A stretch of DNA of 34,006 nt from Rubritepida sp. (GTDB taxonomy: Bacteria; Pseudomonadota; Alphaproteobacteria; Acetobacterales; Acetobacteraceae): positions 1-34,006 of the forward strand of contig JAQGHY010000044.1 of the NCBI GenBank assembly GCA_028291455.1, given 5' to 3'. Shown here one piece after another: positions 45-33,444 of this stretch; position 1 is the stretch's first letter, and every line of letters starts with the position of its first letter. The position numbers and the translations under genes were made by a program. Below the pieces are notes generated by a model. The model searched no databases and was not told where the DNA came from. It worked only from the letters and a program-made list of their open reading frames with translations.

Positions 45-1217
45 TTGCGGCTGTTGACCTTCAGCACGCTCTACCCCAACGCGGAGCAGCCGCATCATGG
101 CGTCTTCGTGGAGAACCGGCTGCGGCATCTCGTCGCCAGCGGTGAGGCCAGCAGCACGGTGCTGGCGCCCGTGCCGTGGTTCCCCTCGACATCGCGCTAC
201 TTCGGCCGCTGGAGCCGCTACGCCGCCATCCCCCTGCGTGAGGAGCGGTATGGCCTGGCGGTGCATCATCCGCGCTTCGCCGCGGTGCCGGGGCTCGGCA
301 TGTTCACCGGCCCGCTCGCGCTCTATGCAGCCGCGCGTCGGGCGCTGGCGCGGATGCTGGCGGAGGGGACGCGGTTCGATGCGATCGACGCGCATTACCT
401 CTACCCCGACGGGATCGCGGCTATCCGCCTCGGGCACGAATTCGGGCTGCCCGTAGTGCTGACCGCGCGCGGTTCCGACACGAGCCAATTGCCACAATAC
501 CGGCTGCCGCGCCGCCTGATCCAGGCCGCGCTGCACGAGGCGACGGCGCTGATCGCGGTCAGTGCGGGACTGAAGGAAGGGCTGGTGGCGCTGGGCGCCC
601 CGCCGGACAAGGTCACGGTGCTGCGCAACGGCGTGGATCTCGACGTCTTCCGCCCGCCCGCCGATCGGGTCATGGCACGCGCGGCGCTTGGGCTGGATGG
701 GCGCCCTGTGCTGCTCTCGGTGGGGCATCTGATCGAACGCAAGGGCCATGACCTGATCATCCGCGCCCTGCCGATGCTGCCGGACCATCTGTTGCTCATC
801 GTCGGCGAGGGGCCGGAGCGCAGCGCGCTGCAGACGCTGGCCGAGCGGCTCGGCGTCGCGGACCGGGTGCGGCTTGTTGGCGCGCAGTCGCATGGGGCGA
901 TGCAGCGCTTCTACGGCGCCGCCGATGCGCTGGTCCTGGCCTCCAGCCGCGAGGGCTGGGCGAATGTCCTGCTCGAAGCGATGGCCTGCGGCACGCCCGT
1001 GATCGCGAGCCCGGCCTGGGGCAGCCGCGAGGCGGTCGCCGCGCCGGAAGCGGGGCTGGTGCTGGACGAGACGACGCCCGACACGATCGCCGCCGGTGTC
1101 CGCCGCCTGCTGGCCGCACCGCCCTCCCGCGCGGCGACCCGCGCCTATGCCGAGGGCTTCGGCTGGGCGGAGACGACGGCGGGGCAACTGGCCCTTTTCC
1201 GACAGGTGGTGGGATGA
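45..1217 (+). CDS. Glycosyltransferase family 4 (GT-B fold)
   Basis: 390-aa ORF; MRLLTFSTLYPNAEQPHHGVFVENR N-terminus, LLSVGHLIERKGHDLIIRAL and EGWANVLLEAMACGTPVIAS motifs typical of GT4. Confidence 0.93.
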   Translation: MRLLTFSTLYPNAEQPHHGVFVENRLRHLVASGEASSTVLAPVPWFPSTSRYFGRWSRYAAIPLREERYGLAVHHPRFAAVPGLGMFTGPLALYAAARRALARMLAEGTRFDAIDAHYLYPDGIAAIRLGHEFGLPVVLTARGSDTSQLPQYRLPRRLIQAALHEATALIAVSAGLKEGLVALGAPPDKVTVLRNGVDLDVFRPPADRVMARAALGLDGRPVLLSVGHLIERKGHDLIIRALPMLPDHLLLIVGEGPERSALQTLAERLGVADRVRLVGAQSHGAMQRFYGAADALVLASSREGWANVLLEAMACGTPVIASPAWGSREAVAAPEAGLVLDETTPDTIAAGVRRLLAAPPSRAATRAYAEGFGWAETTAGQLALFRQVVG

Positions 1218-3259
1218 AGCTGACACGCCGGCATGCCATGGCTGTAGTGCCCTTCGCGGCGGTTCCTGCCTGCCAGGGTTATGCGCAATCCGCGGCATCG
1301 TTGCCCTGCGCCTCGCGGCCCGGCGATATCGTCGGGCTGGTGCTGGAAGGCTCGGGCGCACCGGCCGGCACCGTGACCGTCTTCGGCCAGAGCTTCCGCC
1401 AGGGTGACCTGCCGCGTAACGCCTTGCCCGGTGCGCGGACGGAGGACGGACGGCCGCTGACGGTCCAGTGCGACATCAAGACCCGCCACCCCGACGGCTC
1501 CGCGCGCTTCGCCGTCATGGCGCTGGCCGCCCCAGCGCTCGCCCAGGGCGCGCGGGCCGGTGTAGTGCTCACGCGGGAGGGCCAGGCGACGGGTCCGCTG
1601 GACGCGGCACCGCTTCTCGCCCGGCATCGGGCGGAGCTGTCGATCGGCGAGCAGCGAATGGATCTGATCGCCTTGCTGCGCACCGCGTTGGCCGACCCCG
1701 CGCTGCGGCCCTGGCAATCCGGGCCGCTCGCGATCCAGGCGCGGGTCATGGTGCCGGTCACCGGTCTTGCCGTGACCTCGATGCGCCTCGTCGCGGACCT
1801 CTCCGTGCGGGCCGATGGCAGCTTCTGGGCCGACCTTTGGATGCGAAACGACGGCGCCATGCGCGCCGGCGGCGGGGCCAGCCCGGCCTATACCTTGCGC
1901 GTGACGCTGGATGGCCGGGACGCGCTGCGCGCCGACATCGCGCGCCAGCACCAATACACCGGTTGGGGCCGGCTGCTGGGCACCGGCCCGGTGCCGCCCT
2001 CGGTACGGGCGGATGCGGCCTATCTCGCCGATGTCGGCGCCGTGCCGCGCTACGATCTCGGTACCGGCGTGGCGCCCGCGGTGCTCGCCACCATGGGCGA
2101 GGCCGCGCGCACCCCGGGCTGGTCCGCCCCGCTGGGGAACCGCTTCATCCAGCAGGACATGTCCGGCACCGGAGGAAGGCCCGATATCGGGCCCGCCACG
2201 CAATCCCAGGCGGCCTGGCTCATGACCGGGGATCCCCGTGCCGCCGCCTTCGCCATCGGCCAGGCCGAGGCGGCAGGTTCCATTCCCTGGCATTTCTGGG
2301 ACGGCGCCTGGATGGACACGCGCCGCTGGCCGCGGCTGTGGACCGACGGGCGGGGCGGGCCGCCGCCCGGTGGGCTGCTGCAGCCGATCGCCGCCGATAC
2401 CGGCTGGAGCCTGGACTCCGCGCATCAGCCCGATCTCTCGACCGTGCCCTATCTGCTGACCGGCCGCCGCGCCTTCCTGGATGAGATGCAGGCCCAAGCG
2501 AGCTGGAGCGTGCTCGGCCAATGGACCGGCACGCGCGGCACGCCCGACCGGCCGGGCCTGGCGGAGGGCGTGAACATCATTCGCGGCACGCAGGTGCGCG
2601 GCGCCGCGTGGTCGCTCCGCCAGCTCGACGGCGCTGCCTGGGCCAGCCCAGACGACGACGCGATGGTGCCCTGGCTGCGCGCCACGGCCGGGGCCAACTG
2701 GGCCTGGCTGCGCGCACAGCTTCCGGCCTGGACGGCGACGCAGGGCGAGGCGCATGGCTGGATCCCCGGCGAGTACGGCACGCCCGGCCTGCTGCCGCCC
2801 TGGCAGCAGGACTACTTCGCCTCCACGGCCGCCGCCGCCGCCAGGCGCGGCAATGCGGATGCGGGGGCTGTGCTGGCCTGGATGGGCAATTTCCTCGTCG
2901 GCCGCTTTCTTGCCGACCGGCGTGGCTTCCCCCGCAACGACGGCGCTGCCTATCTGCTGGCGATCCGGGCCGATGGCAACGCCGGCGCGCCCTTTCGGAG
3001 CTGGGCGGAAATCGGCCAGGCGACCCGTGCCCGCGGCCTGTCCAACGGCGACGGCTGGAGCAAGACCGGCGGCGACTACGCGCAGCTCGCCTTGGCATCC
3101 CTGGCGATGCTCTCGGATGCGACGGGAGGCGGCGAAGCGCGCGTGGCGTGGCAATGGCTGCGCGCATCCGGCGCGCCCTTCATCAGCCAGGATGCTTTCC
3201 GGCGCGACCCCATCTTCAACATCGTGCCGCGCGGCGAGGCCCGTTCAGCCTGCCGCTGA
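1214..3259 (+). CDS. Uncharacterised exported protein, putative polysaccharide-acting enzyme; paralogous to the N-terminal ~660 aa of the 20448-24275 protein
   Basis: 681-aa ORF; start overlaps the upstream GT4 stop (ATGA). N-terminus MKLTRRHAMAVVPFAAVPACQG is Tat/lipoprotein-like. Shared motifs with 20448 ORF: QGEAHGW(I/V)PGxYG, PPWQQDYFAST, NFLVGRF, TGWSxDxAHQPxLSxVPYxLTG. Confidence 0.85.
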   Translation: MKLTRRHAMAVVPFAAVPACQGYAQSAASLPCASRPGDIVGLVLEGSGAPAGTVTVFGQSFRQGDLPRNALPGARTEDGRPLTVQCDIKTRHPDGSARFAVMALAAPALAQGARAGVVLTREGQATGPLDAAPLLARHRAELSIGEQRMDLIALLRTALADPALRPWQSGPLAIQARVMVPVTGLAVTSMRLVADLSVRADGSFWADLWMRNDGAMRAGGGASPAYTLRVTLDGRDALRADIARQHQYTGWGRLLGTGPVPPSVRADAAYLADVGAVPRYDLGTGVAPAVLATMGEAARTPGWSAPLGNRFIQQDMSGTGGRPDIGPATQSQAAWLMTGDPRAAAFAIGQAEAAGSIPWHFWDGAWMDTRRWPRLWTDGRGGPPPGGLLQPIAADTGWSLDSAHQPDLSTVPYLLTGRRAFLDEMQAQASWSVLGQWTGTRGTPDRPGLAEGVNIIRGTQVRGAAWSLRQLDGAAWASPDDDAMVPWLRATAGANWAWLRAQLPAWTATQGEAHGWIPGEYGTPGLLPPWQQDYFASTAAAAARRGNADAGAVLAWMGNFLVGRFLADRRGFPRNDGAAYLLAIRADGNAGAPFRSWAEIGQATRARGLSNGDGWSKTGGDYAQLALASLAMLSDATGGGEARVAWQWLRASGAPFISQDAFRRDPIFNIVPRGEARSACR

Positions 3260-20447: not shown

Positions 20448-23400
20448 ATGACTGAACTCTCGAATCTCAAGCTTGCTTTTGAAAATGCCGGTGCAGCCAC
20501 CCTGGCATCTGGCGTCGCCACTTTCGGCCAGGTGTTCCTGCCCGGCGAACTCCTCTCGGGAACCGGACTGACCGCTGAATTCGGCGGTGCCAGCCACGAC
20601 GTCCAGCTCGACGTAAAGACCCGATACGATGACGGCTCGGTCAAGATGGCGGTGCTCTCCATCGAACGGCCCGACCTCGCGCCCGGTGCCGCGCTCGACG
20701 TCACGCTCTCCGCCGCCGCGGCAAAGCCCGCCACCGCCATCGACCTCAATCAGGCGCTCGCCAACCATTCCTTCAACGTCGACCTGACCATCCAGGGCGG
20801 CGAGCATGTCAGCGTCGATGTCCTCGCCGCACTGCACGATGCGCTGGCCGACGGGTCCGCCAGCTTCTGGCAAAAGGGCGATCTGGCCAGCCAGGCCCGC
20901 GTCGAGGTCACGCTCGAAGGTTCGCAGCGGTTGGTCTTCGACGTGACCGCCTTCAAGGACGGAGGCTTCGCCGTCGAGGCCCAGTTCAACAACGACGGCG
21001 CCATGGGTGCGACCGGCGGCCGCGTCGCCTACGACCTCGTCGTGACGATGGATGGAAAGCAGGCCGCGGCCGAGACCGTGAACCAGGGCCAGTACCAGAA
21101 CTGGCACGAGAGCTTCTCCAGCAACGCCACCGACGGCGGGCAGGGCACCGGCAGCCCCGAGGCCGGCTGGCTGAACATCCGCCAGGACATCGCCCATCTC
21201 GAGGCGACCGGCGTCGTCGCCAATTACGACCTCAGCCTGCAGATCAATCCCAACCTGCTCGCCGCCTACGCCGCCGCCACCCAGGCCGACGGCTGGGGCG
21301 ATCCGCTCGCGACCAACGGCGTGACGCAATTCATGCCTGCCACCGGAGGCCGCTCCGACATCGGCATTACGACGACCGCCAACACGTCATGGCTGATCAG
21401 CCAGGACGCGCACACCGCCGCCTATGCGCTCGGCCAGGCCGAGACGGCCAGCTCCGTGCCGTGGAACTTCTGGGATGCCAAGAACGACACCTGGCTGAAC
21501 ACCGATGCCTATCCCCAGCTCTGGACGGATTACCGCGGCGGCACCGGCAGCCCTGGTGATCCGACCTCGACCGGCCTGACGCAGCAGGTGGGAGGCGACA
21601 CCGGATGGAGCACCGATCCCGCCCATCAGCCCCAGCTCTCCTTCGTGCCCTATGTGCTGACGGGCGAGCGCTGGATGCTCGATAATCTCGAGGCGCAGGC
21701 CGCCTGGAACATCCTCGGCCAGCAGCCCTCGGTGCGCGGCGACGCCGACGACAACGTGATCAACACCAACCAGGTGCGCGGCGCCGCCTGGGCGCTGCGC
21801 GAAGTGGACGCCGCCGCCTGGGCAGCTCCCGACGGCAGCACGGAGCAGACCTTCTTCCAGCACGCCTCGGATGCCAACTACGCCTGGCTGGTCGCCCAGA
21901 TCCCCAAATGGACGGCCGAGCAGGGCGAGGCGCATGGCTGGGTTCCCGGCAGCTACGGCGCCGACGGCGCCATGCCGCCCTGGCAGCAGGACTACTTCGC
22001 CTCCACCGTGATCGCGGCGGCCGGGCGGGGAAATGCGGATGCGATGACCTTCCTGAACTGGGAGGCCAACTTCCTCGTCGGTCGCTTCACGAGCGAGGCG
22101 CAGGGCTTTCACGCCCACGACGGTGCCACCTATCTGCTCGCCATCAGCGACCCCGTGACCGGTGCCGCCCCCTACACGACCTGGGCTGAGATCGGCGCGC
22201 AGACGGAGGCGCGCGGCTGGAGCAACGGCTTGACGGGATGGGAGCACAGCCAGGGCGACTACCCCCAGCTGGCCCTGGCCACACTTGCCGGCATCTATCA
22301 CCTGACCGGCTCGGCCGAGGCCAAGGCCGCCTATGACGCGCTGATCGCCGATGCCGCGCCGTTCTCCGGCACCAGCGACTACGAGCGCGACCCGACCTTT
22401 GCCATCACGGCGCCGGATGCGTCGTCGCCGCAGACACCGGTCGTACAGGACCCGGCCCATCCCACCCCGACGCCGGACCCCACGCCGGTTCCCGACCCCA
22501 CTCCGGTGCCAACTCCCACTCCCACTCCGGTACCCTCGTCCGGTCTGACGCCGCTCGCCATCATATTGGGCGCCGACAGTTGGCAAGGCGACCCGCTGGC
22601 GGTGATCCGCGTCGACGGCCAGGGGGTGTTCCGCGGCACGATCGCCACCCAGCACGCGGCGGGCGGGCAGCGGCTCGAACTGGGCAACTTCGACGCCCAT
22701 ACCGCCCATACGGTCACGGCCGAATTCCTCAACGACGCCTGGGGCGGTACTGCGACGACGGACCGTAACCTCTACGTTGAATCGGTCCTCGTGAATGGCG
22801 TCGCCACCGGTGACCATCAGGCACTGCTCGATGGCGGAACGGCGAGCTTCGTGCTTGCGGCGGCACCTGTCGCGGTACCGACGCCGGTACCCTCATCCGG
22901 CCTGACGCCGCTTTCCATCGTACTGGGCGCCGACAGTTGGGAAGGCGACCCGCTGGCGGTGATCCGCGTCGACGGCCAGGAGGTGTTCCGCGGCACGATC
23001 GCCACCCAGCATGCGGCGGGCGGGGAGCGGCTCGAACTGGGCAGCTTCGACGCTTATACCGCCCATACCGTCACGGCCGAATTCCTCAACGACGGCTGGG
23101 GCGGTACCGCGACGACGGACCGAAACCTCTACGTGGAATCGGTCCTCGTGAATGGCGTCGCCAGCGGTGACCATCAGGCACTGCTCGAAGGCGGGACAGC
23201 GAGCTTCGTGCTTCCGGCGGCACATGTCGACGTGCCGACCCCGGCCCCCACTCCGATCCCGACCCCGACCCCGGTACCCTCGTCCGGCCTGACGCCGCTC
23301 TCCATCGTACTGGGCGCCGACAGTTGGGAAGGCGATCCGCTGGCGGTGATCCGCGTCGACGGCCAGGAGGTGTTCCGCGGCACGATCGCCACGCAGCACG

Positions 23401-24275
23401 CCGCAGGCGGGGAGCGGCTCGAACTGGGCAGCTTCGACGCCCATGCCGTTCATACCGTCACGGCCGAATTCCTCAACGACGGCTGGGGCGGTACCGCGAC
23501 GACCGATCGAAACCTCTACGTGGAATCGGTCCTCGTGAATGGCGTCGCCACTGGTGACCATCAGGCGATGCTCGAAGGCGGGACGGCGAGCTTCGTGCTT
23601 CCGGCGGCACCCGTAGAGGTGGCGCAGGATGTCCTGCGGGTCGCGATCTCGGGGGACTCCTGGCAGGGCGACGCGAGCTACCTGGTGCTGCTCGACGGCA
23701 AGCAGGTGGGCAGCGGCACGACGAGTGCCTCGCACGCGGCCGGCGCGCTGGAGTTCATCGATCTGAAGGGGGATTTCTCGACCGCCGGGCACGAGTTGAC
23801 CCTGAGCTTCCTGAACGACGCCTGGGGCGGTACGGCCACGACGGACCGCAACCTCTATCTGGACTCCCTCACCCTGAACGGCGTGGACCAGCATCACGCG
23901 GCAAGCCTCCTCAACGGCGGGGATGCGACGTTCGACTTCGGGGGTGCGCCGGCGCCAGCCGCCGGTGTCACCCCGAACGTGATGCGTGTCGCGGCGTCCG
24001 ATCAAGGCGCTTCGCCCACGGTGCTTCTTGTGGACGGCGTGCAGATGGGCGGCGCGCAGGATGCGAGCGTGCCGCAAGCCGGGGCGGCGGAGCTCCATGA
24101 GGTCAAGGGCGACGACGCGGCTGCCGCCCATTCTCTGGCGCTGCAGCTTCTGCAAGGCGACGCCGCCAGCACTGCGGCAAGCAGCAACCTCCATGCAACA
24201 CCGGAGTTCCATGGCGAGGACCAGCAGGTCCATGCGCCGCTCGTGCCTCACAGCGACGCCGTTTTCGCTTTCTGA
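20448..24275 (+). CDS. Large putative secreted polysaccharide-acting protein with C-terminal CBM60/36-like repeats; candidate type I secretion substrate
   Basis: 1275-aa ORF, no N-terminal signal peptide. N-terminal part is paralogous to 1214-3259. Pro/Thr linkers. Repeats (L)GADSWQGDPLAVIRVDGQ...VTAEFLNDAWGGTATTDRNLYVESVLVNGV resemble Ca-dependent xylan-binding CBM60. C-terminus DAVFAF resembles T1SS terminal motifs (acidic then hydrophobic). Confidence 0.85.
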   Translation: MTELSNLKLAFENAGAATLASGVATFGQVFLPGELLSGTGLTAEFGGASHDVQLDVKTRYDDGSVKMAVLSIERPDLAPGAALDVTLSAAAAKPATAIDLNQALANHSFNVDLTIQGGEHVSVDVLAALHDALADGSASFWQKGDLASQARVEVTLEGSQRLVFDVTAFKDGGFAVEAQFNNDGAMGATGGRVAYDLVVTMDGKQAAAETVNQGQYQNWHESFSSNATDGGQGTGSPEAGWLNIRQDIAHLEATGVVANYDLSLQINPNLLAAYAAATQADGWGDPLATNGVTQFMPATGGRSDIGITTTANTSWLISQDAHTAAYALGQAETASSVPWNFWDAKNDTWLNTDAYPQLWTDYRGGTGSPGDPTSTGLTQQVGGDTGWSTDPAHQPQLSFVPYVLTGERWMLDNLEAQAAWNILGQQPSVRGDADDNVINTNQVRGAAWALREVDAAAWAAPDGSTEQTFFQHASDANYAWLVAQIPKWTAEQGEAHGWVPGSYGADGAMPPWQQDYFASTVIAAAGRGNADAMTFLNWEANFLVGRFTSEAQGFHAHDGATYLLAISDPVTGAAPYTTWAEIGAQTEARGWSNGLTGWEHSQGDYPQLALATLAGIYHLTGSAEAKAAYDALIADAAPFSGTSDYERDPTFAITAPDASSPQTPVVQDPAHPTPTPDPTPVPDPTPVPTPTPTPVPSSGLTPLAIILGADSWQGDPLAVIRVDGQGVFRGTIATQHAAGGQRLELGNFDAHTAHTVTAEFLNDAWGGTATTDRNLYVESVLVNGVATGDHQALLDGGTASFVLAAAPVAVPTPVPSSGLTPLSIVLGADSWEGDPLAVIRVDGQEVFRGTIATQHAAGGERLELGSFDAYTAHTVTAEFLNDGWGGTATTDRNLYVESVLVNGVASGDHQALLEGGTASFVLPAAHVDVPTPAPTPIPTPTPVPSSGLTPLSIVLGADSWEGDPLAVIRVDGQEVFRGTIATQHAAGGERLELGSFDAHAVHTVTAEFLNDGWGGTATTDRNLYVESVLVNGVATGDHQAMLEGGTASFVLPAAPVEVAQDVLRVAISGDSWQGDASYLVLLDGKQVGSGTTSASHAAGALEFIDLKGDFSTAGHELTLSFLNDAWGGTATTDRNLYLDSLTLNGVDQHHAASLLNGGDATFDFGGAPAPAAGVTPNVMRVAASDQGASPTVLLVDGVQMGGAQDASVPQAGAAELHEVKGDDAAAAHSLALQLLQGDAASTAASSNLHATPEFHGEDQQVHAPLVPHSDAVFAF
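22529..23627 (+). repeat. Three tandem CBM60-like domain repeats with Pro/Thr-rich linkers (units starting near 22529, 22886 and 23273)
   Basis: Each unit opens with GGTACCCTC(G/A)TCCGG(T/C)CTGACGCCGCT; spacing 357 then 387 bp; units 2 and 3 nearly identical at nucleotide level by eye. Confidence 0.9.
23628..23945 (+). repeat. Fourth, diverged CBM60-like repeat
   Basis: LRVAISGDSWQGDASYLVLLDGKQ...LTLSFLNDAWGGTATTDRNLYLDSLTLNGV. Confidence 0.85.
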
Positions 24276-24678: not shown

Positions 24679-25167
24679 ATGCACGGCAATATCAAACCGA
24701 TTGGGCTCGATGGCCGAATGGATCTCGTCGGCATTCGCCGGGTTCCGATGGATGAGGTCGCAGGCCTCAACAATCGATCGCCGACCTCTGCCGATGCAAC
24801 CGTGGGTGGCCGCATCAAGGAGCTCCGGCGGGCCGCGGGCCATACCCAGAAGCAGGTCGCAAATCTCATCGGGGTCACCGGCGCGCAGTTTCACCGATAC
24901 GAGACCGGCGCGACACGCGTCGCCGCCAGCCGCCTCATGGCCATCGCAGCCGCGCTCGGCACCCGGCCCGAGGCGCTGATCGGCGCGATGGGCAAGGCCC
25001 AGCCGATGATCACCGCCGCTCCGCTCGACGGCGCGGCGACGGATGGGCTGGTCGAGCTGGTCGAGGTGTATGCGACCATCAGCGACCCCCGCCGGCGCCA
25101 CGCGCTCATCGCCTTCGCACGCGTCGTCGCGCGGGCGCAGGGCTCGGACGACCCTGTGGCGGACTAG
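24679..25167 (+). CDS. XRE-family helix-turn-helix transcriptional regulator
   Basis: GGRIKELRRAAGHTQKQVANLIGVTGAQFHRYETGATRVAASRLMAIAAAL; GAGGAGAGAGAA RBS upstream. Confidence 0.93.
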   Translation: MHGNIKPIGLDGRMDLVGIRRVPMDEVAGLNNRSPTSADATVGGRIKELRRAAGHTQKQVANLIGVTGAQFHRYETGATRVAASRLMAIAAALGTRPEALIGAMGKAQPMITAAPLDGAATDGLVELVEVYATISDPRRRHALIAFARVVARAQGSDDPVAD

Positions 25168-25372: not shown

Positions 25373-28300
25373 CTAAACGGAGGTCATCACGATCCGTATC
25401 AACTCCGGCAGCGAGCGTGCGCCCAGCTTGGACATGATGGCGGCCCGGTGATTTTCCACCGTCCGCTGGCTCAGGTTCAGGTCGGCCGCGATGTTCTTGT
25501 TGGGCATTCCCGCGATGATGCGGTCCAGGATCTCGCGCTGGCGTTCCGTCAGATTGGCGAGCTTGGCCGCATGTTCGCTCTTGGAGGCTTGTTGCCGGGC
25601 GCCATCCGCGATGAGGGCCGTCGCCTTCTCGAGGCTGCGCAGCAGAGCGTCGCCATGGATCGGCTTTTCGATGAAGTCGATCGCCCCCGCCGACACGGCG
25701 CTCACTGCCAGGCGGATATCGCCCCGGCCGGCGATCATGATGGCGGGCAGGCGATGCGCGTTCGGGCGCAGCGCATTCAGCAGCGCCAGCCCGTCCATGC
25801 CGACGATTGCCGAATCGACCAGCACGCAGCCGCGCCGGGTCGGGGTGTCGGCATCGAGGAAGGCCCGCGCGCTGGCGAAGCTTTCGGTGGCCCAGCCCTG
25901 GCCCTCCAGCCACTCGGCGGTGGCAAGCCGCAAAGCGGCGTCGTCTTCCACGATGAAGACGTGCCCTCTCGGTCCTTCGGCGGGTGCGGTGCGGGCCCCA
26001 CGGGCATGCGGAAGCCACCGATGCACCCGGTCCAGCAGGTCCGTGGGATCTATGGGCTTGAGCAAGTGGTCGAAGCTCCGGCCGCTGATACCCTCCAGCA
26101 CCGAAGCCTCAATGTCCTCGCCGGTCAGGAGGATGGCGGCTGGCGGCCGGGCCTGGGCCTGGCCGATGCGACGGACGACATCGAGCCCGGTCATGCCATC
26201 CGACAGGTCGTGATCCGCGATGACGAGGGCGGGCGGATTTTCGAGGGCGAGGCCCATGGCCCGCATCGCGTCGGTTGCCAGCGTGGCCGCGTAGCCGTCG
26301 CGTTCCAGCAGGATGCGCAGCATTTCCCCGAGTTCCAGATCCTCCGCGATGATCAGGATGTGGCGAAGGCTTCCCTTTTCAGGCGTCACGAGCAAGGACG
26401 CGGCGGCAGGCGTGCTTGTCGGCACGTCGATGGCGAAGATCGCCTGGCCCATGGCGCGCGGCTCGACACGGATCGGATGACCCAGCAACTCGGCCAGCCG
26501 CCGCGCGACCTCCAGGCCGAGGCCAAGGGCCTCGCCGCGCTCGACGAGGGGGTGGCCCGCCTGCCGCGTGTCATCGAAGTTGGCGCGCGGCTGCGGAAGG
26601 GGAAGCTGGATCAGGATCTCGATACGCAGGAGGTCTCCCTTCCGGCGGCAACCCAGCAGGATCCTGCCCTTGGGCGTGTATCGCAGCACGGCTGAAATCA
26701 AATTGCGAAGAACCTGCCGCAGCAGCCGGATGTCGCTGATGATCATCCTTTCGCAGGGGACCATCCGCCATTGGAGGCCCCTGGCGCGCGCATGTTCGCC
26801 GAATTCCTTCTCCAGCGTGGCCAGCAGCGTGCCGATCCGAAAGGCCGAGAAGCTGGGATGGACGTTGCCGAGCTCCAGCTGCTCGCTGTCCTGCAGCGCA
26901 TCGAGGATGCCGGACATCACGGCGATGGGACTGTCGAGCCGGCCGATGTCACGGAGCACCTGCGGGTCGCTCACCGTCTCCGCCATGATCTTCTGCAGCA
27001 TGACGATGCTCTGCAGCGGCTGGCGCAGGTCATGACCCGTCGTCGTCAGCAGGCGGGACTTCTCCCGGCTGGCCCGCTCGGCCATGGCCTTGGCGGTCTC
27101 GAGCCCCGACGTGAGCATGACCCGGTCGGTGATGTCCTCCACGGCGAGGAGGGTCCGAACCGCCGGTGCGCCGCCCCTCAGGCGGCTGGCGGCGAGCCGG
27201 AGAGTCCTTCGCCCCCGGGCCGGAAGCGTCACCTCGACGACGCTGTCCTCGATCGTCTCCGGCGTGCCGTCGCGGCTGGTGAGGAAGGACGCCAGCTTCG
27301 GCACCGAGCGCAAAGCGGGTCCCACCAGCACGCGCAGCGCATTCCCGCCGAGCTCACGGTGGGCGCCGAACATCGCGCCGAAAGCTTCGTTGGCGAAGAC
27401 GACCTGCAGGTTCGCGTCCAGCACGATGAGCGGCTGGCGGATCGACTGCACGATATCGGCCGTGGCACCGAGGACGGCCTCGGCATGGCCGGTCGCCTTC
27501 TTTATTTCGGAGATATCCACATAGGTGATCACCACCCCGACGAGGCCCCTCTCGTGGTCGTTGCAGGGCTGGATGCGGCGCATGAGCCAGCTGCCGTCGG
27601 GCCCCAGCACTTCCCTGGCACTCGGCTGCAGGGTCGTGAGCACCGCCCGTGCCTCGTCCAGCAGGCTCGTGTCGCCGGCGAGCGGCGCGATATGGGCCAA
27701 GGGCCGCCCGATGTCGTTGCCGATGATCCGGAAGGGCAGGCGTTCGGAAGGGGTGTAGAAGCGGATGTTCAGCTCGGCGTCCAGAAGGAGCATCGCTACA
27801 CCGGAGCTTGCGAGGATGTTCCTCAGTTCGCCGGAGGCCTGCCGTTCGTCCTGCAGGGCGCGCCGCAGCTGTTCGTTCAGCCCGTCGAGCTCGCGGTTCA
27901 GGCTGGCCTGGTCGTCGCGGGCGGCGATCAGCTCCTCCTGGGCCGACATCGCCTCCTGGCCGTCGAGGTTGGCCTGCTGCTGCACGAAATCCAGTTCGAG
28001 CCTGAGGCTCTCCAACTCGTGCTGGAGGGCCTCGTTCTCTTTCTCCTGATCGGCGATCCGTGACCGGTCCCCCAGATCCGGCAGCTCCACGGGCGTCGCA
28101 CTGCCGGCTGCCGGCGATTCCACGAAGCTGACCAGCATCAGCCCATCATCTTCGTGCTGGACGGGTTGGACACGCAAAGTCACGAGGTCGCCGGCGGAGC
28201 CGTCGTAGGAAGGCATGATGCCGAACGACACCGTCTGGCCCGATCGCCGGGCCTCTGTGATGGCATGCGCGGCGCCGCGCCTCAGCCGCGGCACCAGGAG

Positions 28301-30007
28301 GGCCAGCAGGCGGTTCGTCGGCTCGCCGGCGGGAAGGTCGAGGAAGCGGCCGAGCGGCCCGATCGCAAAGAGCACCCGGCCGGCCGCGTCGATCAGGACG
28401 CTGGGGGGAATGAAGGCGTCGGTCGCGGCGCGGCGGGCCAGTTCGGCGACACTGCGCGGCGCCAGGAGAGAACGCCGGGTGCCCGAGGGCGGGCTGGCCG
28501 CGTCCGGTTCGGAAGGGTTGGCGGCGGTGGGCCACGGGACATTCAGGCGCCGGTAGATGCGCGGCACCGCCGAGACGGCCGTGAAGCCCTGCTCGATGAA
28601 GCGCCCGCTATCCGTGCCGTTGACGCACAGGATGCCGGAACTGTTCAGCGCGAAGTGGAAGAGCGCCAGCAGCTTCGCGCGGGCATTCGGCAGCAGATGG
28701 TTCAGCAGATCGCGGCAGACGATCATGCCTAGGCGCGAGAACGGCGGATCCTTGAACGGATTCTGTGCGCCGAACACCACCATGGCGCGCAGCCTGGGCG
28801 TCACGCGCCATCCGTCGTTTTCCTCGACGAAATATCGCGCGAGCTGTTCTCGGGGAATGTCGCGCCCGAGGTGCCGGGGATACAGGCCCGCCCGCGCATA
28901 AGCTACCGCTGCGGGGTCGATGTCCGAGGCAAAGATCTGCGGCGGGATCGTCCCCTCGACCGCAGCGAGGGCATCGGCCGCCAGCATGGCGATCGTATAG
29001 GCTTCCTCCCCCGTGCCGCATGCCGCCACCCAGATACGCAGCGGCTGCGCTGGTGTGGATGCGGCCAGCATGGGCACCAGATACTTGTCCCGCAGGGCGA
29101 GCAGCGCCTCGCTGTCCCGGAAGAAGCCCCTCATGTTGACGTGGAGGTCGTCCGCCAACGCCTGCGCCTCGCTTTCGTCCGTCTCGAGCGAGGCGAGATA
29201 GGCGGCAGGGGAGGCGGCACCGGCGATCCGCATCCGGCGCTCGATACGCCCCTGGAGCGTGCTGGGCTTGTAGCCCTCCAGGGAAAGCGGCGTCAGCCGC
29301 GCGAGGCTGGCGACGGCGCCCTTCAGCCAGGACGCCTCGGGCGCGACGGATTGGATGCCGACCCGGCTTTCTCCGGCTGCGCGCTCTGCGCACCAGGATG
29401 CCAGGGCTTCGCCGATCTCCGTCGCGGACAATACGCGGTCGGCGAGGCCGGCGGCGATCGCTCCTTCCGGGGTGCCCGATACCTCTTCCCCGTCGAAACC
29501 GGCCGCCGGCGACTGGGCGAAGACATAGCCGCCGCGTTCGCGGATTTCCCGCAGCCCTGGCCAGTTATCCGGACCAGCGCCCGACAACAGGATGGCGACG
29601 GCGCGAGAGGTTTCACTCGCCGCCAACGAGCGAAGGAAGCAGTCGAATGCTGATCCCTGCGGCGCCGGCGTCGCGGAGAAGTGCAGCACGCCGCGCTCGA
29701 GGACGGGTTGGCTGCCGGGCGGCGCGACATGCAGGTGATTGGGCCGGAGCGGAGCGCCTTCCTCCGCCACGACGACGGAGATCGGCGAGTAGTCGGCCAG
29801 AAGGCCGGCCAGCAGGCCCGGATGGAGATTGTGATGCTGGAGGATCAGGACGAATGCCAGGTTCTTGTCGGTCGGCAGGCCCGTCAGCAGGGGCAGGAAG
29901 TCTTCAAGGCTCTCCGCTCCGATGCCGACTACAGCGGCGATTTGTTCAAATCGGGGCCCATTTTCCGACCGCCCATCGGTCAATTCAGGTTTCCGCATCG
30001 AAAGCAC
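25373..30007 (-). CDS. Giant hybrid signalling protein: CheB-like / CheR / coiled coil / PAS / HisKA-HATPase-like / REC / REC / LuxR-type HTH
   Basis: LILQHHNLHPGLLAGLLADYSPISV and LLSGAGPDNWPGLREIRERGG (CheB); IWVAACGTGEEAYTIAML (CheR SAM site); GHDLRQPLQSIVML (H-box); GEALGLGLEVARRLAELLG; ILIIAEDLEL...LVIADHDLSDG...LLKPID (REC1); VFIVEDDAAL...CVLVDSAIVGMDG...IEKPI (REC2); LTERQREILDRIIAGMPNKNIAADLNLSQRTVENHRAAIMSKLGA (LuxR/FixJ HTH). Confidence 0.92.
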   Translation of the reverse strand: MLSMRKPELTDGRSENGPRFEQIAAVVGIGAESLEDFLPLLTGLPTDKNLAFVLILQHHNLHPGLLAGLLADYSPISVVVAEEGAPLRPNHLHVAPPGSQPVLERGVLHFSATPAPQGSAFDCFLRSLAASETSRAVAILLSGAGPDNWPGLREIRERGGYVFAQSPAAGFDGEEVSGTPEGAIAAGLADRVLSATEIGEALASWCAERAAGESRVGIQSVAPEASWLKGAVASLARLTPLSLEGYKPSTLQGRIERRMRIAGAASPAAYLASLETDESEAQALADDLHVNMRGFFRDSEALLALRDKYLVPMLAASTPAQPLRIWVAACGTGEEAYTIAMLAADALAAVEGTIPPQIFASDIDPAAVAYARAGLYPRHLGRDIPREQLARYFVEENDGWRVTPRLRAMVVFGAQNPFKDPPFSRLGMIVCRDLLNHLLPNARAKLLALFHFALNSSGILCVNGTDSGRFIEQGFTAVSAVPRIYRRLNVPWPTAANPSEPDAASPPSGTRRSLLAPRSVAELARRAATDAFIPPSVLIDAAGRVLFAIGPLGRFLDLPAGEPTNRLLALLVPRLRRGAAHAITEARRSGQTVSFGIMPSYDGSAGDLVTLRVQPVQHEDDGLMLVSFVESPAAGSATPVELPDLGDRSRIADQEKENEALQHELESLRLELDFVQQQANLDGQEAMSAQEELIAARDDQASLNRELDGLNEQLRRALQDERQASGELRNILASSGVAMLLLDAELNIRFYTPSERLPFRIIGNDIGRPLAHIAPLAGDTSLLDEARAVLTTLQPSAREVLGPDGSWLMRRIQPCNDHERGLVGVVITYVDISEIKKATGHAEAVLGATADIVQSIRQPLIVLDANLQVVFANEAFGAMFGAHRELGGNALRVLVGPALRSVPKLASFLTSRDGTPETIEDSVVEVTLPARGRRTLRLAASRLRGGAPAVRTLLAVEDITDRVMLTSGLETAKAMAERASREKSRLLTTTGHDLRQPLQSIVMLQKIMAETVSDPQVLRDIGRLDSPIAVMSGILDALQDSEQLELGNVHPSFSAFRIGTLLATLEKEFGEHARARGLQWRMVPCERMIISDIRLLRQVLRNLISAVLRYTPKGRILLGCRRKGDLLRIEILIQLPLPQPRANFDDTRQAGHPLVERGEALGLGLEVARRLAELLGHPIRVEPRAMGQAIFAIDVPTSTPAAASLLVTPEKGSLRHILIIAEDLELGEMLRILLERDGYAATLATDAMRAMGLALENPPALVIADHDLSDGMTGLDVVRRIGQAQARPPAAILLTGEDIEASVLEGISGRSFDHLLKPIDPTDLLDRVHRWLPHARGARTAPAEGPRGHVFIVEDDAALRLATAEWLEGQGWATESFASARAFLDADTPTRRGCVLVDSAIVGMDGLALLNALRPNAHRLPAIMIAGRGDIRLAVSAVSAGAIDFIEKPIHGDALLRSLEKATALIADGARQQASKSEHAAKLANLTERQREILDRIIAGMPNKNIAADLNLSQRTVENHRAAIMSKLGARSLPELIRIVMTSV

Positions 30008-30364: not shown

Positions 30365-31720
30365 CTATTGCTCGTGGAACGCCCGGGCCAGGCTGTCCTT
30401 CAAAGGCTGCATCAGGTAGCGCCAGAAACTACGCTGGCCGATCTGGACATGTCCCTCCACCGGCATGCCGGCGACGAGCACGACATCGGGCAGGGCCGCC
30501 AGCTGGTCCTCGTCGATCCGGATATGGGCGCGGAAGTAGGGCGGGCGGCCTTGCGGCTCGGTCGTCACGTCGGCGGCGACGAAGGTCACATGCCCGTGCA
30601 AAACCGGGATGAGCCGCTGGCGGAAGGCCGGCAGCCTGACCTCCGCGGGCAGACCCATATGGACCACATCGATGTCAGCGGGCTGGATGTTCACCTCGGC
30701 CACCAGCCGGTCCTGCACCGGAACCAGATCCATCGCCGGATCGCCGGCGCGGATGACGGCTCCCACGGTGAACTGGCGGAGATTGAGGATGGTGCCGGCC
30801 TCGGGCGCCACCATCTCCCGCCGCGCGGAGATATCGGCCGCGGCGCGCATGCGCTCCTCGGTATCGGCCAGCTTGCCCGCGACGTCGCGGGCTTCGGTGC
30901 CGATTTCCTGCTGCCGCTGGTCCCGCGCCTGGGCGATGCCGTTGCGCGCCTCGGCGATGGCGCCGTTCGCCCGCTGCACCTGCCCCTGCAGATCCAGCGC
31001 CTGCCCATCGAGCCCGGCCAGGGCGCGCTGCAGGGCCAGCAGCTCCGGCACGCGGGCGAGGCCCTGGCGCACGAGACCGCTGCGCATCACCTCCTCCTGC
31101 CGCATGAGCTCGCGCTGGCGGCGTGTCGCCTCCAACTGTCCCTCGGCGCCGGAGATCACCGCCTGCTGCTGCGTCACGCGGGATTCCAGCACGAGAAACT
31201 GACTGGCGAGGTTCGCGGCGCGGGCCTCGAACAAGGCGCGCTGGCCGGTCATCGCCTCCTGCGCGCGGATGTTGTCCGATGCCGTCATCTCCGCGGGGAA
31301 GGCGACGGCGGCGGCGCGCATCGTCTCGGCGTCTAGCCGGGCCATCTGCGCCATCAGCCCGAAGCGTTGCGCGCGCAGCCCTTCGAGGGTCGCGCCGGAC
31401 TGCACGTCGTCGAGCCGCATGACCACCTGGCCAGCCTCGACCCGAGAGCCGTCGCGCACCAGGATCTCTCGGATGATGCCGCCTTCGAGGTGGGACAGCG
31501 TGCGGCGCGTGCCCTCGACCTTGATCACGCCAGGCGCGATCGCGGCCTCCGCCAGCGGGGCCAGGACGGCCCAGCTCATGAAGCCGCCGAAGAAGCCGAT
31601 CATCACGACCAGCCCGCCCACGACCAGGCCGCCGGTGCGGGGCCGCTGCGCATCCAGCATCGGGTTGAAGGTCAGGCCGATGGCCGGCCGATGGTTCATG
31701 TTCTCGAGCCTGGTGCTCAT
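30365..31720 (-). CDS. Type I secretion periplasmic adaptor (HlyD/PrtE family)
   Basis: GFFGGFMSWAVLAPLAEAAIAPGVIKVEGTRRTLSHLEGGIIREILVRDGSRVEAGQVVMRLDD and C-terminal GMPVEGHVQIGQRSFWRYLMQPL; ATGA overlap with the ABC gene. Confidence 0.95.
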   Translation of the reverse strand: MSTRLENMNHRPAIGLTFNPMLDAQRPRTGGLVVGGLVVMIGFFGGFMSWAVLAPLAEAAIAPGVIKVEGTRRTLSHLEGGIIREILVRDGSRVEAGQVVMRLDDVQSGATLEGLRAQRFGLMAQMARLDAETMRAAAVAFPAEMTASDNIRAQEAMTGQRALFEARAANLASQFLVLESRVTQQQAVISGAEGQLEATRRQRELMRQEEVMRSGLVRQGLARVPELLALQRALAGLDGQALDLQGQVQRANGAIAEARNGIAQARDQRQQEIGTEARDVAGKLADTEERMRAAADISARREMVAPEAGTILNLRQFTVGAVIRAGDPAMDLVPVQDRLVAEVNIQPADIDVVHMGLPAEVRLPAFRQRLIPVLHGHVTFVAADVTTEPQGRPPYFRAHIRIDEDQLAALPDVVLVAGMPVEGHVQIGQRSFWRYLMQPLKDSLARAFHEQ

Positions 31721-33444
31721 CGTGCATCCTCCTTCGCGGGAGCTATCAACGGTGCTTGCGATGGCGGCGCGAGCAGGCGGCGCATCACTTCTTCGCGCGG
31801 GCCGAGGATCGAGACAGCCCCGCCCTTCAGCAGCAGGACCTTGTCCACCCCCTGCACCAGCGCGGGCCGGTGCGAGACGAGGATCACGGTCACGGCACGC
31901 AGCTTGAGTTCGTCCAGCGCATGGCCCAGCGCCATCTCGCCGTCGCGGTCAAGGCTGGAGCTGGGCTCGTCCAGCACGACCAGCTTGGGGTTGCCGAACA
32001 GGGCGCGTGCCAGCCCGATCATCTGCCGCTGCCCCCCCGAGAGATGGGTTCCGCCGTCGCCGATCTCGGTGTCGTAGCCGTCCGGCAGGCCCAGGATCAT
32101 CTCATGGCAACCGGCGATGCCGGCGGCCTCGAACACCGCCTCGGGTTCGGCCTCGCCCATGCGGGCGATGTTGCGGAAGACCGTGCCCTCGAAGAGCTCC
32201 ACATCCTGCGGCAGATAGCCGACATGGCGGCCGAAATCCTCACGCTGCCAGAGGAAGACATCCGCGCCGTCCAGCCGGACATTCCCCGCCGAGGGCTGCG
32301 CCACGCCGATCAGCAGGCGGATCAGCGTGGTCTTGCCGGCGGCGGAGGGGCCGATGATGGCGAGGGATTCGCCGGCCGCGAGGGTGAAGCTCACCCCCTT
32401 CACCGCGGCTTCGTTGCGTCCGGGGAAGACGAAGGAAACGCGATCCGCCGCCAGCTTCCCGGTGGGATCGGGCAGGCGCATGCCCTCGGGCCGCAGGCGC
32501 GGCAGGCCGAGGAAGGCCTGCAGGCGGCGGTAGGATTGCCGGGCCTGGACGAGTTGCTTCCACGAACCGATGAGCTGCTCCACTGGGGCCAGGGCGCGCC
32601 CCATGATGATGGATGCCGCGATGGAGGCGCCGGCCGTCAGCTCCTGCTGCAGCACCAGCCAGGCGCCGATGCCGAGGATTCCGATCTGGATCGCGAGGCG
32701 GCTGAATCGCGTCGTCCCCACGATCCAGCCCGCCCGGTCCGCCGCGCGGGACTGGGGAGGCAGCATCCGGGCCACGCCCTCCCGCCAGCGCATCAGCACC
32801 GCGGGCAGCATGCCCATGCTGTCGATGACCTCGGCGTTGCGGCCGATCGCGTCGGCCCGGCGCTGGCTGGCCATGGCGGCGGTATTGGCCTCGCGCAGGA
32901 ATTTCGCGGTCACGGCCTCGTTGAGCAGGGTCAGCGCCAGCAGCAGGACCGCGCCGCCCAGCGCGATGGCGCCCAGGATCGGATGCAGCAGGAAGATCAC
33001 CGCCAGGTAGACCGGCACCCAGGGCACGTCATAGACGGCGAGCATGCCGGGCGAGCCCAGGTAGCCGCGCGTGACGGCCAGATCGCGGAGCGCCTCCATC
33101 CGGTAGGGGCGGCCGCGGAGCTGGGCTTCCAATGCACGGGCAAAGCCCTCGGGCGCCACCCGGTGCTCCACCCAGCTCGCGACACGCTGCATGATGGCGG
33201 ATCGGATCGCATCCAGGACCGCGAAGATCAGGATGGCGAAGATGGCGATCAGCGTGAGGTAGAGCAGGGTGTCCGTGTTGCGGGTGGTGAGCACCCGGTC
33301 GAAGACCTGCATCATATAGAGCGACACGGTGAGCTGCAGCAGGTTCGCCACGCCCGAGAAGGTGCCGACCAGCAGGAACAGCCCGCGGCAAGACGCGAGG
33401 GCGCGCGCGAGCACGGTGTCGTTGGGGGTATTGGGATTTCGCAT
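31717..33444 (-). CDS. Type I secretion ABC permease/ATPase (PrtD family)
   Basis: FSGVANLLQLTVSLYMMQVFDRVLTTRNTDTLLYLTLIA; Walker A GPSAAGKTTLIRLL; signature LSGGQRQMIGLARAL; Walker B KLVVLDEPSSSLD; start at ATG 33444 (MRNPNTPND). Confidence 0.95.
   Translation of the reverse strand: MRNPNTPNDTVLARALASCRGLFLLVGTFSGVANLLQLTVSLYMMQVFDRVLTTRNTDTLLYLTLIAIFAILIFAVLDAIRSAIMQRVASWVEHRVAPEGFARALEAQLRGRPYRMEALRDLAVTRGYLGSPGMLAVYDVPWVPVYLAVIFLLHPILGAIALGGAVLLLALTLLNEAVTAKFLREANTAAMASQRRADAIGRNAEVIDSMGMLPAVLMRWREGVARMLPPQSRAADRAGWIVGTTRFSRLAIQIGILGIGAWLVLQQELTAGASIAASIIMGRALAPVEQLIGSWKQLVQARQSYRRLQAFLGLPRLRPEGMRLPDPTGKLAADRVSFVFPGRNEAAVKGVSFTLAAGESLAIIGPSAAGKTTLIRLLIGVAQPSAGNVRLDGADVFLWQREDFGRHVGYLPQDVELFEGTVFRNIARMGEAEPEAVFEAAGIAGCHEMILGLPDGYDTEIGDGGTHLSGGQRQMIGLARALFGNPKLVVLDEPSSSLDRDGEMALGHALDELKLRAVTVILVSHRPALVQGVDKVLLLKGGAVSILGPREEVMRRLLAPPSQAPLIAPAKEDAR

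Follow-up and report, generated by a model that had tools for sequence, protein, structure and literature searches.

The 34,006-nucleotide stretch of Rubritepida sp. DNA analyzed here (contig JAQGHY010000044.1, positions 1 to 34,006, forward strand; hereafter, the window) contains a gene at 20448-24275 on the plus strand whose 1275-amino-acid (aa) product is probably an exopolysaccharide (EPS)-active enzyme. The protein carries no leader, and it is probably exported through its C-terminal end by a PrtD/HlyD/TolC-type type I secretion system (T1SS), with the transporter pair encoded at 30365-33444 as the foremost candidate. A preliminary description of the window had proposed that the protein is a T1SS cargo lacking RTX repeats and that Ca2+ binding by its tandem CBM60 carbohydrate-binding modules takes over the folding and ratchet role of such repeats. 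Comparison with relatives supports the first proposal well but does not support the second.

The open reading frame (ORF) is real: its ATG is the earliest start in frame, a Shine-Dalgarno-like GGAG lies shortly upstream, and the product has no hydrophobic N-terminal leader. The four CBM60-like repeats noted earlier were recovered with PF16841 (E = 4.9e-41; 139.6 bits versus a gathering score of 28.2), each of these intact modules conserving the LNDxWGGxxxxDRN core, and the C terminus reads HSDAVFAF as described. Neither PF00353 nor a GGxGxD motif matched the 1275-aa protein, which is thus not an RTX protein; it contains no cysteine and has a pI of 4.28. A fifth, degenerate CBM60 occupies the C terminus (residues ~1175-1275; 14.7 bits with a profile built from the other four). 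Residues 1-651 form a conserved domain (the N-domain) that the preliminary description, which called the N-terminal half only leaderless, had missed; homologues occur in 26 of the 150 Acetobacteraceae genomes sampled. The protein is laid out as follows.

20448..22400, plus strand: N-terminal domain of ~650 aa, a beta-rich RIFT-like barrel and then an (alpha/alpha) toroid, putative polysaccharide lyase or hydrolase (AlphaFold, fold search, homologues)
22401..22541, plus strand: Pro/Thr-rich linker (translation)
22542..22865, plus strand: CBM60 copy 1 (PF16841, profile match)
22899..23222, plus strand: CBM60 copy 2 (PF16841, profile match)
23286..23609, plus strand: CBM60 copy 3 (PF16841, profile match)
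23622..23948, plus strand: CBM60 copy 4 (PF16841, profile match)
23970..24272, plus strand: degenerate CBM60 copy 5 that keeps the last strand but not the LNDxWGGxxxxDRN core (profile match)
24249..24272, plus strand: C-terminal HSDAVFAF, candidate end of the T1SS signal (D-x-h-aromatic end, h being hydrophobic, common to RTX sisters and not in signal-peptide paralogues)

Complete homologues of the N-domain fell into two cleanly separated groups. In copies made with a signal peptide, no more than ~15 aa follow the domain; these proteins contain cysteine, are mostly neutral to basic, and bear neither CBM60 nor RTX, whereas leaderless copies continue into an acidic tail of 160-970 aa that carries RTX repeats, CBM60 together with RTX, or CBM60 only. 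An internal control for this sorting lies within the same window and EPS cluster.

1214..3259, plus strand: signal-peptide-bearing paralogue of the N-domain without a tail, 681 aa, 45-49% identical to the N-domain (homology, leader inspection)

The leader of this paralogue is Tat-like, possibly that of a lipoprotein, and its neighboring genes are conserved at L043 and L045. Its presence is the point in favor of Sec or Tat export of the 1275-aa protein from a missed start codon, an account that we consider, together with lysis or non-classical release, very unlikely. Against it stand the position of 20448 as the first start in frame behind the GGAG element, the leaderless state of every sister copy at the aligned position, and the zero cysteines and acidic tails of the leaderless group, which contrast with the signal-peptide copies.

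RTX repeats were detected with PF00353 in the leaderless tails of L009, L014, L115, L116, L113, and L076 and slightly under the cut-off in those of L044, L114, and L117; the same Pfam search detected none in the tail of leaderless L112. RTX tails occur also in near relatives of the 1275-aa protein (L009, L041, and L076), with an M10_C-like RTX block in L009 and L076. These three resemble the window protein in having a leaderless homologous N-domain (55-64% identical) and a C-terminal ending of the same type, but they carry an RTX block where the window protein has CBM60. Mixed tails are seen in L111 and in L007, where a single CBM60 precedes RTX-like repeats that stay below the Pfam cut-off. 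Near its N terminus, L007 (G088:C1:78458-80388) has an in-frame TGA or frame break, possibly reflecting decay or a sequencing error. On the N-domain tree, the CBM60-only copies are set apart from all others by one change (support 83/78; a single origin in 86% of bootstrap trees). They are nested among leaderless, mostly RTX-bearing lineages, with the mixed copy L007 as the nearest labelled neighbor. The simplest history, on a tree whose root is not fixed, would be loss of RTX within a leaderless RTX-bearing lineage.

The type of ending seen in the 1275-aa protein recurs in its close leaderless relatives. An ending consisting of an acidic residue followed by hydrophobic and aromatic residues within the last eight positions (D-x-[hydrophobic]-[aromatic]) is present in 9 of 10 tails with CBM60 only and in all 6 related RTX tails, for which shuffling of the last 120 aa gives expectations of 0.21 and 0.16, respectively, and in 0 of 12 signal-peptide copies; the pattern was picked after some tails had been viewed, which makes the counts descriptive and not a test. 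We regard as more telling that the ending appears to survive decay of the module that bears it. Compared with intact terminal modules, CBM60 copy 5 is only 33-35% identical in its body but agrees at 5 to 6 of the last 7 residues, and L042 repeats this pattern of a decayed terminal CBM60 with retained last residues.

DAVFAF could alternatively be merely the last beta-strand of the terminal CBM60, with no role in export, so that the protein would leave otherwise or stay inside. The terminal modules of L032, L037, L038, and L039 do stop exactly at the C terminus, and internal copy 4 of the 1275-aa protein ends GDATFDF, meaning that the motif (GDAVFAF) is in part the natural last strand of CBM60 itself. 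Moreover, where a genome has no PrtD above the cut-off, many of the leaderless CBM60 proteins end differently (..QHFTVNVP). However, L033 and L036 have a separate tail of 23-33 aa after their last CBM60, ending TDHIFIS and NTDQVFIG, and the ending both outlives module decay and is common to the RTX sisters; we judge it unlikely that the strand is all there is to it.

A second copy of the enzyme gene bears on the proposed Ca2+ ratchet. In the same genome, the end of contig C156 (L073) and the start of contig C298 (L072) carry N-domain sequence that is 91-97% identical to the window copy in the parts seen, followed by a decayed tail with no detectable CBM60 that still ends PHTDAIFS. This copy is broken over two contig ends, so that we infer rather than observe that it is one gene. 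A strain variant of the window locus is disfavored as its explanation, since the sequence on either side of it does not correspond to the genes of the window. According to the ratchet proposal, Ca2+-dependent folding of the tandem CBM60s outside the cell would replace RTX as the folding trigger. The four intact cores, the Ca-dependence that Pfam assigns to the CBM60 family, the disappearance of RTX from the CBM60-only clade, and the precedent of RapD, a Ca2+-binding PrsDE cargo that folds on Ca2+ (PMC9298526), all speak for it. Nevertheless, the number of CBM60s among cargo-like copies ranges from 0 recognizable to 5, the near-identical second gene keeps its ending without a recognizable CBM60, and CBM60 and RTX coexist in the intermediates. 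The mechanism thus appears improbable to us. The intact CBM60s, which gave no match against PDB sequences, may bind Ca2+, but they look like binding modules placed atop the export signal rather than its motor.

The HlyD/PrtD pair reported as complete in the preliminary description is so: both genes are intact and full-length, with a 4-base overlap. The genes between and including the cargo's neighbor and the transporter are as follows.

24679..25167, plus strand: Xre-type helix-turn-helix (HTH) regulator, syntenic in L032 and L042 (Pfam, synteny)
25373..30007, minus strand: CheB-CheR-PAS-histidine kinase-REC-LuxR hybrid regulator between the cargo gene and the T1SS, syntenic (profile matches, synteny)
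30365..31720, minus strand: HlyD-type T1SS adaptor (TIGR01843, 339 bits, cut-off 209)
31717..33444, minus strand: PrtD-type T1SS ABC permease/ATPase, ORF extendable to 33591 (TIGR01842, 680 bits, cut-off 510)

Two other genomes, those of Roseococcus sp. SYP-B2431 and R. pinisoli (L032, L042), keep the same gene order, running from glycosyltransferases through enzyme, HTH, CheBR hybrid, and HlyD to PrtD. The hybrid is a 1544-aa CheB-CheR-PAS-histidine kinase-REC-REC-LuxR fusion, also syntenic in L032 and L042, which may control this locus. PrtD above the cut-off was found in 10 of 10 genomes with the close leaderless clade versus 27 of 140 others (Fisher P = 3e-7, phylogeny ignored). We rejected the idea of a PrtD that serves this cargo alone, as PrtD is widespread in genomes without the enzyme, being a general single-copy system in many such relatives, and usually does not lie next to the enzyme gene. 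Elsewhere, a distant leaderless N-domain gene (G039:C829:15715-21171) lies ~2 kb from a same-strand ABC transporter gene (TIGR01842, below the cut-off), giving an additional case, independent of the first, of adjacency to a T1SS-like ABC.

The earlier view of a single T1SS with no other substrate holds within the window but not genome-wide: contig C232 carries a second PrtD/HlyD pair, and contig C258 carries one RTX protein. No TolC-like partner is encoded in the window; the genome search for one turned up six or so OEP-family proteins across six contigs elsewhere, all of them candidates for the TolC role. With two PrtD/HlyD pairs available, the neighboring pair need not be the sole exporter. 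Export by the C232 pair, or by both, with the neighboring pair serving mainly other cargo, is a possibility to which we give some weight but which we think doubtful. It draws on the two full pairs and on the non-adjacent T1SS of most relatives with the enzyme, but adjacency is kept in the window, L032, and L042, and the enzyme-less congeners G044 and G124 have one PrtD each, which groups with the C232 copy and not with the window copy (modest support, long branches).

The nature of the N-domain was addressed by structure prediction. Pfam gave no match to the window copies, and a profile searched against PDB sequences returned nothing useful. The AlphaFold model (pLDDT 76.8, pTM 0.83) begins with a beta barrel and ends in a helical toroid, and its best and sole clear PDB fold match with Foldseek was the PL26 exo-rhamnogalacturonan lyase PcRGLX (5xqg; E = 3.1e-6, prob 1.0, TM 0.27). 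The N-domain model appears to share a RIFT barrel and an (alpha/alpha) toroid with PcRGLX, but identity is 10% and the TM-score is low. PcRGLX_1st (Pfam) matches the homologues L014 and L115 weakly, below the cut-off. From the PL26-like fold and this sub-cut-off match, the N-domain is probably a polysaccharide lyase or hydrolase. Its genes sit in EPS clusters rich in glycosyltransferases in Acetobacteraceae, and the named genera with relatives are of Acetobacteraceae type, e.g., Roseococcus, Rubritepida, and Roseomonas.

With the family sorting, the shared ending, the synteny, and PrtD in all ten clade genomes taken together, export by a PrsDE-like T1SS is a well-supported prediction. Several observations weigh against it. 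The leader calls come from sequence inspection, a crude hydrophobicity score, and family comparison, not from SignalP, and the PDB TM-score of the N-domain is low. Adjacency of enzyme and T1SS is limited to three close genomes, with the T1SS far from the enzyme elsewhere; the Fisher test on PrtD takes no account of phylogeny, and PrtD is general in Roseomonas-like genomes. To these are added the second PrtD/HlyD pair, the overlap of the motif with the strand that ends internal copy 4, and the finding of the D-x-h-aromatic ending in 0 of 8 distant leaderless RTX copies, whose exporter is probably a different ABC. We nonetheless favor a model in which the enzyme is made without a Sec/Tat leader and would be exported in one step by a PrtD/HlyD/TolC-type system, most likely the syntenic pair, with recognition through the C-terminal end (..DAVFAF). 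Outside, the PL26-like barrel/toroid domain would act on EPS, presumably the cell's own, while the CBM60 modules would hold the enzyme on the polysaccharide. Such a protein may have arisen within this enzyme family when a leaderless, RTX-tailed lineage lost its RTX block; the terminal CBM60 would now supply, or have decayed into, the C-terminal signal.

CBM60 is concentrated in this family, being present in 41 of the 150 Acetobacteraceae genomes, that of the window among them, versus 2 others in the 200-genome phylum sample (Fisher P = 1e-14). Among ~53 CBM60 ORFs with a readable N terminus, one has a clear leader (L153) and three are ambiguous by the crude score; cysteine is scarce in CBM60 ORFs, and most lack GGxGxD. 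Dozens of leaderless CBM60 proteins (L082-L110, L126-L166) occur in Acetobacteraceae, several with GH16-like N termini, and many of the leaderless CBM60 proteins lie in genomes without PrtD above the cut-off (G017, G018, G041, and G108), where the tails end in ..QHFTVNVP. A tentative idea is that, across Acetobacteraceae, CBM60 generally stands in for RTX in leaderless carbohydrate-active enzymes exported by T1SS, its last beta-strand having been co-opted as a C-terminal secretion signal. The survey indicates that this family has many leaderless CBM60 enzymes with an apparently unassigned export route.

Non-RTX T1SS cargo is already established: about 25% of validated T1SS substrates have no RTX motifs (PMC8861453), and PrsDE of Rhizobium leguminosarum secretes the EPS glycanases PlyA and PlyB, termed non-RTX (PMC3034196), with plyA adjoining prsDE (PMC2275737). 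A literature search for CBM60 together with type I secretion found no paper in the collection searched. The present case differs in its enzyme fold, in having CBM60 where those cargoes have Ra/CHDL or RTX, and in an evolutionary replacement that can be followed among relatives. One enzyme family here forms a natural experiment, running from Sec/Tat copies with a leader and no tail through T1SS with RTX and T1SS with CBM60 and RTX to copies that have CBM60 alone. Such a series makes it possible to ask what remains necessary for a T1SS cargo after RTX loss and which few C-terminal residues a PrtD-type ABC reads, and it points to T1SS-exported EPS remodeling outside rhizobia.

Among known systems, the 1275-aa protein very probably works like a PrsDE cargo, judging from its sequence relatives, and the transporter setting resembles the multi-cargo PrsDE of Rhizobium rather than a dedicated pair. 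PrsDE also exports the Ca2+-binding, EPS-binding Rap proteins (PMC9298526). RapA and RapD resemble the window protein as T1SS cargo with Ca2+-dependent polysaccharide-binding modules (PMC9298526), the Ca2+ dependence of CBM60 being that of the Pfam family, but Rap proteins have Ra/CHDL cadherin-like modules instead of CBM60, and RapA2 and RapD have no enzyme domain. With PlyA and PlyB, the likeness would extend to leaderless EPS-processing enzymes termed non-RTX, a multi-cargo PrtD/HlyD-type T1SS, and a cargo gene beside the transporter, whereas the PL26-like N-domain and the CBM60 modules set the 1275-aa protein apart.

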